Positions 36,864-40,461 of a stretch of 64,000 nt of DNA are shown here, one piece after another (within the stretch, counting starts at the first letter, position 1; each line of letters starts with the position of its first letter). The notes beneath the pieces are model-generated. The model did no database searches and was not told the DNA's origin. It saw nothing but the letters and a program-made list of their open reading frames with translations. Location of the stretch: assembly GCF_000420065.1 (NCBI RefSeq), contig NZ_ATUF01000002.1, positions 248,001 to 312,000 of the forward strand, written 5' to 3'. This DNA comes from Varibaculum cambriense DSM 15806. GTDB taxonomy: Bacteria > Actinomycetota > Actinomycetes > Actinomycetales > Actinomycetaceae. The translations under genes and the position numbers were made by a program.

Positions 36864-37057
36864 CGCCGTCTCCTTCCTTCTCAGCTATGCCCGGGGTCCT
36901 CGCCTACCCGCTCTCATAGTCTAGCGAGTTTTCAGTGAAGCCTGGCACAATAACCACCTGGTAGTTGGCTGTTGCCCCCCGAATCGGTTAATCTGGTCGG
37001 GTTGCCGATATCTGGGTTATTAGCCCAGAACTAGAAGAATACTTGAAGGAGACTATC

Positions 37058-37243
37058 GTGGCTGCCACCTGTGACATCTGCGGAAAAGGCCCCGGTTTCG
37101 GGAAGAGCGTTTCGCACTCCCACCGGCGCACGAACCGCCGTTTTAACCCGAATATTCAAAGCGTGCGCGCCGTTGTTGGTAGTGGCCGCAAGCGCATGAA
37201 TGTTTGCACCAAGTGCCTCAAGTCTGGGCGTGTTGCTCGCTAG
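37058..37243 (+). CDS. rpmB: 50S ribosomal protein bL28
   Basis: GTG 37058 is chosen as start because AAGGAG lies 7 nt upstream; the product ([20 protein letters not shown]) is 61 aa, the normal size. It has zinc-binding CDIC and CTKC pairs, so it is the zinc-containing form. It stands alone and is followed by a strong terminator. Confidence 0.95.
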
Positions 37244-37259
37244 CTGAGGGGAAAATCAG

Positions 37260-37292
37260 CGCCGTCTGCCTCTGGCAGGCGGCGTTATTTTT
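37260..37292 (+). terminator. Terminator of rpmB
   Basis: CGCCGTCTGCC (37260-37270) pairs with GGCAGGCGGCG (37274-37284) with one G-U and is followed by TTATTTTT. Confidence 0.88.
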
Positions 37293-37382
37293 ATGCCCAC
37301 CCGGAAAGTTATTCCACCTGAACGTGAGATTCTATGTAAAGTTAATAATGATTTCTCGTCCATTAACAGCTAAAGGATTCTC

Positions 37383-37955
37383 ATGAGCCAGAACAACCCA
37401 AACCAATACGGTGATTTCCCCAACAACTCAGGGCAGTCTCCCGCTGCTAACAATCCGGATAGCTCTTTAAATCCGGGAGCTCCTGGTGGGCAATTCCATC
37501 AGATTCAGCCCTACCAGCCCCAGCCGGGCAGCCAGAGTCCGATACCTCCTGCCCCAAATAGTGGCAACTACCAGTGGAATAGTTCTGGGCAACCCCAGGG
37601 ACAGCCCTTCCCGCAAGCCCCCGGTAACTACCAGCAATATCCGCCTATTCCTGGGCAGCCGGCTCCGGGCATGGCCTCTCCTATGCCGAATCCCATTCCT
37701 GGGCAGTACCCGAATCAAAAGTCAAAAATGGCAGCCGGTCTGCTCGGTATTTTCTTGGGCGGTTTAGGGGTGCACAATTTCTACCTAGGAAACACCGGAA
37801 AAGCAGTAGCGCAACTACTGATTTCGCTACTTTCTTTGGGATTCCTAGCTGCCATTTCAGGTATCTGGGGTCTAATCGAAGGCATATTAATTTTGACGGC
37901 AAAACCAGGATCTTCTTGGGCAGTCGATGCCGAGGGGATACCTCTACGTGACTAA
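37383..37955 (+). CDS. TM2-domain membrane protein with Pro/Gln-rich tail
   Basis: The 190-aa protein has an N-terminal ~110 residues rich in Pro, Gln, Asn and Gly, then a TM2 domain: KSKMAAGLLGIFLGGLGVHN and FYLGNTGKAVAQLLISLLS, with two helices and the conserved G-x-x-x-G-x-H-x-F-Y-L-G turn. A final hydrophobic helix ends in GIPLRD. ATG 37383 follows AAAGGA. The function of TM2 proteins in bacteria is not established. Confidence 0.85.
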   Translation: MSQNNPNQYGDFPNNSGQSPAANNPDSSLNPGAPGGQFHQIQPYQPQPGSQSPIPPAPNSGNYQWNSSGQPQGQPFPQAPGNYQQYPPIPGQPAPGMASPMPNPIPGQYPNQKSKMAAGLLGIFLGGLGVHNFYLGNTGKAVAQLLISLLSLGFLAAISGIWGLIEGILILTAKPGSSWAVDAEGIPLRD

Positions 37956-38217
37956 CTAGCATCGAGCCGGTTTCTTTTGGTTCCCAGCACCAAGTGTGCC
38001 CACAGGGAAAACTACCACTGATTGCGCTTCCGGTTTTCCCATGTGAGGAAGTTCAAAGATCCTCGGAACACTCTCAGCTTCCCTTAAGGCGATCTGGTCT
38101 GCTAGATTAGGTAGTAACCGACCAGGAAACTGGTACGAAAGTGGAGGTTTTCCCACCTGGATGCTCGCGGGTATCGGGTAAGAACAGATGTTTAAAGCAT
38201 CTGCGCGTTTTTTCGCT

Positions 38218-38260
38218 GCCTCCGCTCAATAAGCGGAGGCTTTTCTTGTTTAAAGCCTCC
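38218..38260 (+). promoter_or_regulatory. infC leader: terminator and alternative hairpin
   Basis: GCCTCCGCT (38218-38226) pairs with AGCGGAGGC (38232-38240) followed by TTTTC, forming an intrinsic terminator. The 3' arm plus the T run, GGAGGCTTT (38235-38243), can instead pair perfectly with AAAGCCTCC (38252-38260). The two hairpins exclude each other, so this looks like an attenuation switch upstream of infC-rpmI-rplT. Regulation by L20 or by translation of infC is the known theme in this operon. Confidence 0.7.
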
Positions 38261-38284
38261 AGAAAACTCAAGCAAGGAGTAGCT

Positions 38285-38941
38285 ATCAGCAACGAGACAC
38301 GCATTAATGACCGCATCCGGGTGAAAGAAGTACGCCTAGTTGGTCCCAGCGGGGAACAAGTAGGGGTAGTCCGGATCGAGGATGCATTGCGCCTAGCCAC
38401 CGAAGCTGGCTTGGATCTAGTAGAGGTCGCCCCCACGGCGAAACCTCCAGTTTGTAAGTTGATGGATTACGGCAAGTTCAAATACGAAGCCGCACAAAAG
38501 GCTCGTAATGCCCGTCGTAACCAGGCAAACTCCCAGCTAAAAGAGATTCGTTTCCGCCTCAAGATCGACGACCACGACTACGAAACCAAGAAAGGTCACG
38601 TAGTGCGGTTCCTTGAAGGCGGGGACAAAGTGAAGGTCATGATTATGTTTCGCGGGCGCGAACAGTCTCGCCCCGAACTGGGCGTAAAACTTTTAGAACG
38701 CCTAGCTGAGGACGTAACCGAGATGGCCACCGTAGAATCTATGCCCCGCCAAGACGGGCGCAATATGACTATGGTGCTGGCTCCCACGAAACGTAAACAC
38801 CATACTAAGTCGGATCAGCGTCGCCGCCGCGATCAGCAAAGTGGCGAGACTATGAACCGGCAACAACTTAAGGATGCCCGTAAAGCGCGGAAAGCCAAAG
38901 AGGCTCAGGAAGCTGCAGCCGCCGCCAAAGCAAAAAAGTAG
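38285..38941 (+). CDS. infC: Translation initiation factor IF-3 (ATC start)
   Basis: IF-3 binds the 30S subunit and checks start codon pairing. The family start ([20 protein letters not shown]) aligns with an ATC at 38285-38287, preceded by AAGGAG at 5 nt, while the nearest upstream ATG (38141) would add 48 residues translated through the attenuator. Rare start codons (AUU/AUC) on infC are a known autoregulation device. The 218-aa product has the N domain, the linker and C domain ([20 protein letters not shown]). A ~30-residue Lys/Ala-rich tail extends beyond the usual end. rpmI and rplT follow. Confidence 0.92.
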
Positions 38942-39003
38942 GGACGTCCGAACCGCCTAAGAAATAGGCAGAACCACCGGCGTGCCGGTAGAGAGGAAAA
39001 ATA

Positions 39004-39204
39004 ATGCCGAAGATGAAGACGCACTCCGGTGCGAAGAAGCGCTTCCGCAGAACCGGAAGCGGAAAACTAATGCGGGAAAAGGCGGGTAAACGCCACCTGC
39101 TAGAACACAAATCTTCCAAACAGACCCGTCGCCTCAGCCGTGATCAGGTAGTGGCTCCTGCCGATACCAAGCGCGTAAATAAGCTGCTGGCTGGCAACAA
39201 GTAG
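39004..39204 (+). CDS. rpmI: 50S ribosomal protein bL35
   Basis: The 66-aa basic protein starts [20 protein letters not shown] after Met, the bL35 signature. ATG 39004 follows GAGAGGAAAAATA. It lies 62 nt after infC and 21 nt before rplT, in the canonical infC-rpmI-rplT operon. Confidence 0.97.
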
Positions 39205-39225
39205 GCAAGGAGAGGATTAAGAGAG

Positions 39226-39606
39226 ATGGCACGCGTAAAACGAGCAGTTAATGCTAAGAAGAAACGTCGCACCGTACTGGATCGCGCCTCTGGCTACCGT
39301 GGTCAGCGTTCTCGCCTATACCGTAAGGCCAAAGAACAGCTGCTACACTCGGGCGTTTATTCCTACAACGATCGCCACAAGCGCAAGAATGATTTCCGGA
39401 AACTGTGGATTCAGCGGATCAATGCCGCTTGCCGCGCCCAGGGCATGACCTACAACCGGTTTATCCAGGGTCTGCGCCTAGCGGAAATCGAAGTTGACCG
39501 CCGGATGCTCTCCGAGCTAGCGGTTTACGATATTGATACTTTTAATCAGCTGGTAGAAAAAGCGAAAGCTGCCCTACCGAAGGACGTAAACGCTCCGGCT
39601 GCTTAA
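39226..39606 (+). CDS. rplT: 50S ribosomal protein bL20
   Basis: The 126-aa protein starts [20 protein letters not shown] after Met and contains [20 protein letters not shown], both typical of bL20. It is last of the ribosomal part of the operon and a likely regulator of it through the leader. Confidence 0.97.
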
Positions 39607-39651
39607 AGCCGCTAATAAGAAGTTAGCTTATTGCTTAATCTACGCCTAGAC

Positions 39652-40461
39652 ATGATTGATAATCCTCGCTCTCAGCGAGTGCGGATTCTAGTCAATCTGT
39701 CTAGGCGTAGTTTTCGTTTAAAGCAAGGATTACTCCTAGTAGAAGGGCCGCAAGCCTGCGCCGAACTGCTGCGTTTTTACCCGGAAGCGGTGCGGGATGT
39801 GTATCTCCATAACCGTGCCCCCTCCCCCGCTATCCAGGTGGCGCGGGAGGCGCTAGGAATTACTTCCTGGGTACATCCGGTAACCCCATCGGTAATGAAG
39901 TTATTCGCGCCCTCGGCGCAAGGAATTGCGGCCACTGCCCAGCTTTCCCTGCTCCCTAGCGATAAGCTTCCGCCCGCGGAGGCTTTGAAAGAGGGCGCTT
40001 GGGCGGTATGCGCGCGGGTACAAGATCCCGGCAACCTGGGGACCATCATTCGGATTGCCGATGCTTGTGGCCTGGCGGGGGTACTGGCTTTGGAAGGCTG
40101 CGCCGATGCCTCGAGCCCCAAAGTTATCCGCGCCAGTGCCGGGAGCCTGTTTCACCTGCCGGTTTACTCCGGTGCCTCCTTCGGTTCTTTAGCGGGGGTG
40201 AGCGCGGAAAACAATGGCTGCCTAGTGGGCCTGTCAGGAGCAGCCGAAACATATCTCCCGGCTTTTACAGCCTCGGATTCGGTGGCGGCCTCACCGCTGT
40301 TTATCTGCCTGGGTAATGAAGCCCAAGGTTTATCTAGCGAGGAAATCGCCCTCTGTAATGAAACCATCGCCATCCCTATGTGGGGAAGGGCCGAGTCCCT
40401 AAACGTGGCAACTGCCGCCGCGATCGCCCTACACGCCATCGCGAGTGCCCGCATTCGCTAA
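39652..40461 (+). CDS. TrmH/SpoU-family RNA 2'-O-methyltransferase
   Basis: ATG 39652 (MIDNPRSQRVRILVNLSRRS) is taken as start because it matches the family N-terminus; a TTG at 39631 is also in frame. The 269-aa protein has the knotted SPOUT motifs: NLGTIIRIADACGLAGVLAL, LGNEAQGLSSEE and IPMWGRAESLNVATAAAIAL. It follows rplT by 45 nt and is probably in the same operon, a common actinobacterial order. Whether it acts on tRNA or rRNA is not resolvable. Confidence 0.92.
   Translation: MIDNPRSQRVRILVNLSRRSFRLKQGLLLVEGPQACAELLRFYPEAVRDVYLHNRAPSPAIQVAREALGITSWVHPVTPSVMKLFAPSAQGIAATAQLSLLPSDKLPPAEALKEGAWAVCARVQDPGNLGTIIRIADACGLAGVLALEGCADASSPKVIRASAGSLFHLPVYSGASFGSLAGVSAENNGCLVGLSGAAETYLPAFTASDSVAASPLFICLGNEAQGLSSEEIALCNETIAIPMWGRAESLNVATAAAIALHAIASARIR

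Follow-up and report, generated by a model that had tools for sequence, protein, structure and literature searches.

How is the infC-rpmI-rplT operon controlled in Varibaculum cambriense, where the gene for initiation factor IF-3 appears to start with a rare codon placed just behind competing hairpins? We addressed this using the window (the entire stretch of 64,000 nucleotides of V. cambriense DNA that was analysed) together with related loci from the organism's class, which we take to be Actinomycetes. The three genes lie on the forward strand, in the same direction and in the order infC, encoding IF-3 (38285-38941), rpmI, encoding ribosomal protein L35 (39004-39204), and rplT, encoding ribosomal protein L20 (39226-39606). 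This gene order suggests that the levels of the three proteins may be coupled. Further upstream, ahead of the infC leader and in the same orientation, are the genes for L28 (rpmB) and a TM2-domain protein (37043-37955).

An earlier note, made from the sequence of the window alone, had assigned infC an ATC start behind a good Shine-Dalgarno sequence and had concluded that no ATG, GTG or TTG would fit. Both points hold. ATC 38285-38287 is the first codon of the frame carrying the Pfam domains IF3_N and IF3_C, the Shine-Dalgarno sequence AAGGAG (38274-38279) precedes it with a 5-nt spacer, and the closest named IF-3 matches are from Actinomyces species. A longer frame starting at GTG 38141 is not conserved in members of the genus and was rejected; read back from the RIN codon, the frame stays open for only 51 nt in L005 and 120 nt in L002, two of these members. 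We then parsed the homologous place in actinobacterial infC loci (206 used; 13 in which the parser did not find the start were dropped). ATG, GTG or TTG occurs there in none of the 193 parsed loci. Behind the Shine-Dalgarno sequence, 175 loci have ATC and 17 have ATT, with one locus unassigned, and a start of the AUU/AUC/AUA type is thus found in 192 of the 193. The rare start therefore characterises the whole class; it is ordinary in actinobacteria and nothing special to the window.

The infC gene of Escherichia coli starts with AUU, and E. coli IF-3 discriminates against such non-standard start codons. By analogy with E. coli, IF-3 probably discriminates here against its own AUC start, which would provide a second layer of control. 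In Staphylococcus aureus the infC start is AUA (PMC13009471). The actinobacterial loci resemble those of E. coli and S. aureus in using a codon other than AUG, GUG or UUG behind a good Shine-Dalgarno sequence but differ in that this codon is AUC or, less often, AUU. In a reporter selection performed in Mycobacterium smegmatis, ATT and ATC scored 9.8% and 0.2%, values that are low yet above background, with a Shine-Dalgarno sequence present (PMC4633059).

The start codon is preceded by a leader of about 170 nt, whose 5' end we place near 38115. The earlier note had drawn the regulatory element at 38218-38287. A terminator-like hairpin is indeed present there, but this interval covers only the 3' end of an element that reaches back to about 38115: alignment of six members of the genus revealed a near-invariant block upstream of 38218. 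The leader core has the form AAGYGGAG...CUCCCACC...GGGU. As an exact pattern (AAGYGGA, 4 to 14 nucleotides, TCCCACCY) it precedes infC on the same strand, at a distance of 86-245 nt, in 54 of 58 infC-bearing genomes, drawn from a sample of 59 relatives that includes the V. cambriense genome itself. Elsewhere in this sample it gave 7 further matches, comparable to the 11 of a reversed-pattern control. In a larger sample from the class the exact pattern is found in 192 of 296 genomes, and some of those without it carry variants. If one mismatch is allowed, the core is present in 113 of 116 representative leaders compared with 3 of 348 shuffled leaders; when two are tolerated it is found in all 186 unique leaders (the 193 parsed loci less 7 duplicates by leader), but also in 35 of the 348 shuffles. 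The stretches sampled include 120 taken from lists of limited length for their spread over families, 8 of which (L229-L236) were chosen for carrying the core. A further set fetched by pattern (L087-L116) was excluded from the leader counts.

A covariance model of the leader was built from a 50-leader alignment with anchored parsing, in which rows were chosen by the length and folding of one of its hairpins (P3, see below) and three mycobacterial rows were dropped because their P3 had been anchored wrongly. Of 136 unique leaders kept out of the model, 109 are matched at E ≤ 0.01 and 27 fall short; some held-out leaders are close kin of model rows (L002-L006 of L001), and three of the eight core-chosen leaders are among the 136, one of them (L236) as a match. 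In the V. cambriense genome there is a single match (E 0.004; the next has E 1.6). In a sample of 149 genomes from the phylum, searched under strict filters, 12 are matched and all 12 belong to the same class as V. cambriense; 117 no-match genomes are not listed individually, and members of the class may have been missed. Named records carrying the leader family range from Actinomyces to Streptosporangium and Mycobacterium. Three mycobacterial leaders (L076, L084 and L085) have a compact core, AAGTGGAGTCCCACTCCCACC, with a similar form in L212 and L217; this compact core is missed by the exact pattern and found by the covariance model. Searching with nhmmer and a profile built from the genus leader returned no more than weak, partial matches and was set aside.

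The domain itself is predicted to contain three hairpins and the conserved box. P1 (38119-38137) is a predicted fold whose length differs among clades; the stretch ahead of the box is predicted to fold a little more stably than shuffled sequence (mean z -1.1, with z < -1 in 65 of 116 leaders). The box, AAGUGGAGG (38139-38147), is defined by core conservation and by the pairing tests described below, and would form the 5' strand either of P2 or of an antiterminator. In P2 (38143-38153) GGA pairs with UCC, the helix being longer in other species, and in P3 (38155-38179) ACCUG pairs with UCGGGU, with additional inner pairs. Both are supported by covariation. In the 50-sequence alignment 92.7% of P2 cells are paired and 3 of 5 pairs are changed on both sides, while for P2 and P3 together the values are 89.9% and 10 of 15. 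None of 500 shuffles reaches any of five covariation measures, and these fall sharply when the partners are slid; since the alignment rows were selected for P3 folding, this comparison is biased toward P3. Selection-free comparisons gave the same direction: for the inner strands of P3, true partners pair better than swapped ones (0 of 2000 permutations against, 115 leaders), and the same is true of the P2 extensions (0 of 2000, 81 leaders). A closing helix, P0, is weak and no more than suggestive (13 of 1000). Over the wider interval 37990-38310, part of which is untranscribed, the predicted fold is more stable than in shuffles (z -3.29). When the domain of the window is folded alone, the modelled P2 register has a probability of 0.12-0.18 and P3 one of 0.24-0.30, and the lowest-energy fold is in a shifted register. 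This counts against the switch proposed below: with P2 at so low a probability, a ligand would be needed to hold it.

Between the domain and infC lie two hairpins of the terminator type. T1 (38185-38203), followed by a T run to 38213, is paired in 6/6 genus members, although the T run is shorter or broken in some of them. T2 (38218-38240; GCCTCCGCT-CAATA-AGCGGAGGC) adjoins infC and is followed by a T-rich tract from 38241. A terminator scan of 37600-39800 gave 6 terminator-like sites compared with a shuffle mean of 2.6 (sd 1.8). As the earlier note had pointed out, GGAGGC at 38235-38240 can pair in two ways, with 38218-38223 in the terminator or with GCCTCC at 38255-38260 in an alternative hairpin (38235-38260). 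Both pairings are largely kept in the six genus members, a set too small to show covariation of either: 78 and 168 of 500 shuffles equal or exceed the observed scores.

Folding of growing transcripts points to a different competitor for the terminator. With transcripts beginning at 38117 and ending anywhere from 38226 to 38236, an antiterminator between 38140-38148 and 38218-38226 has a probability of 1.00 and P2 one of 0.00. Once the 3' arm is complete (end at 38241), the terminator replaces the antiterminator in the folds. In the full-length readthrough RNA the terminator has a probability of 0.76 and the antiterminator 0.24; the 38235-38240:38255-38260 hairpin is also at 0.24 and, on this modelling, is an accompaniment of the readthrough fold, not the switch. 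Antiterminator and terminator share 38218-38226 and are, in the models, mutually exclusive. The leader thus has, as judged by sequence and folding, the two parts of an intrinsic-terminator attenuator, a terminator in the 5' UTR and an upstream antiterminator exclusive of it. The attenuation that the earlier note had proposed is therefore supported, but its antiterminator partner was wrong, the upstream box at 38140-38148 fitting better than 38255-38260.

The same arrangement is seen across the class. A terminator-like hairpin between the domain and infC is present in 58 of 116 representative leaders compared with 11 in shuffles, and under a looser rule in 88 compared with 32. The first scan finds no terminator of at least 8 pairs in 59 of the 116 and the looser scan misses 28; terminators in GC-rich species are hard to score. 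The box and a variable extension of it are complementary to the 5' arm of the terminator adjoining infC. For the 57 representatives with a strong terminator, the mean pairing energy of box and arm is -15.8 kcal/mol with their own partners and -12.8 kcal/mol after exchange of boxes between species (0 of 5000 permutations; here as in the other permutation tests, representative leaders were used and a kinship tree was not). The extension alone gives -6.5 compared with -4.5 (0 of 5000), and in 40 of the 57 the 16-mer of the domain that pairs best with the arm falls at the box. Figures from the unreduced set of 84 leaders agree with these, and leaders with looser terminators give -13.9 for their own and -11.8 for swapped partners (0 of 3000). 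In 21 of the 59 representatives that lack a strong terminator, the box finds a better partner downstream than in any of 8 shuffles, where 6.6 would be expected. Before the 3' arm exists, at least 5 nucleotides of the box are paired with the terminator arm in 44 of the 57 leaders, compared with 18 of 57 for swapped arms; the nascent folds of the other 13 do not show the antiterminator.

A candidate -10 box, TAGATT (38103-38108), with TGC before it, is kept in the six genus members with one change. This would place the transcription start near 38114-38116, and the RNA probably begins at the conserved domain. Similar signals are common in the class: 95 of 116 representative leaders have TANNNT 30-75 nt before the conserved box, where 40 would be expected. 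A sigma-70 consensus scan of 37600-39800 returned no promoter. A separate motif, TGTGAGGAAGTTCAAA (38042-38057), lies 45 nt upstream of the -10 box. It is present in 6/6 genus genomes, once in each and upstream of infC, and is a possible operator or upstream promoter element.

From these comparisons and folds, the leader is very probably a transcription attenuator. The explanation that we favour, and consider somewhat more likely than not, is that the box passes between P2 and the terminator arm under the control of a ligand-stabilised domain for which L20 is the likeliest ligand. The ligand would hold the P1-AAGY-P2-P3 domain, and with the box (AAGYGGAG) locked in P2 the terminator would form and the genes would be off. 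Without ligand, the box would capture the terminator 5' arm, a pairing that excludes P2, giving readthrough with the genes on. L20 is proposed because it is encoded in the operon and because the operon is controlled by L20 in Bacillus, by attenuation of the infC operon, and partly in E. coli, where rpmI-rplT is controlled at translation and infC itself is outside L20 control (PMC10931766). The chances that L20 is the ligand are about even. An L20 site is marked by an AA dimer and two G-C pairs (PMC7247131); the AAG beside GG:CC in the leader is a loose match. A stretch of the organism's own 23S rRNA shares the 6-nt sequence AGTGGA with the box, an identity that chance can give.

The switch could also be the same and the ligand another, namely IF-3 itself, L35 or a non-protein signal. 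We regard this as possible, at rather less than an even chance. The position of the leader directly before infC would suit it. To our knowledge there is no precedent for the binding of IF-3 to a leader aptamer. RNase Y cleavage in Bacillus ties the level of IF-3 to RNA decay and uncouples it from L35 and L20 (PMC3997798), and IF-3 can thus be regulated independently; on the other side, L20 is the known regulator of this operon in two phyla (PMC10931766). That the leader is passive, imposing a fixed partial termination without sensing, is improbable: the completed terminator does win at equilibrium in the window folds, but it is difficult to see why P2 and P3 should covary, and the core be almost invariant, if nothing binds the domain. 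A translated leader peptide acting by ribosome-mediated attenuation is very unlikely. The window has a mini-ORF over P3 (38161-38181; ATG CTC GCG GGT ATC GGG TAA) whose start and stop are kept in the six genus species, but short ORFs preceded by a Shine-Dalgarno sequence are not enriched (16 of 116 leaders compared with 21.5 expected), and with a count below expectation we rejected this as a general mechanism. The downstream antiterminator of the earlier note, 38235-38240 with 38255-38260, hardly comes into consideration despite its pairs being kept in the six genus members, and was rejected on transcription order and weak class-wide pairing: RNA polymerase has already left the U-tract behind when its 3' strand is transcribed, so that this hairpin cannot decide termination at T2, and its own pairing is -10.5 compared with -9.9 for swapped partners (53 of 3000 permutations, 57 representatives).

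The ligand-sensing attenuator that we prefer does not correspond to any family in Rfam 15, which gave no family at gathering score or at E ≤ 5 over 37800-39700 (tRNA alone being found in the window) and, at gathering score, no match to the leader in 20 further infC loci. The nearest system in function is the Firmicutes L20 leader (RF00558) of the Bacillus subtilis infC operon. This precedes the same operon, is likewise located upstream of infC and adopts two alternative structures, one of them an intrinsic terminator (PMC10931766), but its core differs from that of the actinobacterial leader; the RF00558 covariance model matches 4 of 14 control genomes, including B. subtilis, and gives no match in the V. 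cambriense genome. The gamma- and deltaproteobacterial L20 leaders are also tied to L20 genes (PMC7247131, PMC10931766), but control in E. coli is translational and leaves out infC (PMC10931766), and the leader of the window has no Rfam match.

In the literature, a survey of ribosomal leaders names L20 leaders in the Gammaproteobacteria, the Firmicutes and, newly, the Deltaproteobacteria (PMC7247131). The word infC is absent from the main text of a 2010 attenuation survey (PMC2965389) and from a Corynebacterium glutamicum small-RNA paper (PMC4046766). No comparable infC or L20 leader from actinobacteria appeared among the matches listed from open PubMed Central, outside which most of the subscription literature lies; within it we found no description of infC-rpmI-rplT control in actinobacteria, and an earlier account may exist. 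The nearest published case among the matches listed is the long infC 5' UTR of M. tuberculosis, which is similar to the infA UTR (PMC3207917). It measures 326 nt, with a UTR to coding sequence ratio of 2.6 in exponential and 4.9 in stationary phase (PMC3207917), an excess that is compatible with premature termination. It shares length and abundance with the leaders described here, and the mycobacterial leaders L076, L084 and L085 match the covariance model. The excerpts of that paper on which we draw report abundance, the likeness to infA and a suggested common recognition site, and contain no such structure or switch (PMC3207917).

It is about an even question whether the leader represents an undescribed RNA family, a class-wide ligand-sensing attenuator of infC-rpmI-rplT with its own fold, which would have arisen separately from the L20 leaders of Firmicutes and proteobacteria and would act together with discrimination by IF-3 against AUC. 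In practice, gene callers limited to ATG, GTG and TTG will misplace the infC start, since it is AUC or AUU in the parsed loci. The leader would also be a concrete candidate RNA for L20 or IF-3 binding. If the attenuator is class-wide, it would add another independent way in which infC-rpmI-rplT is controlled.
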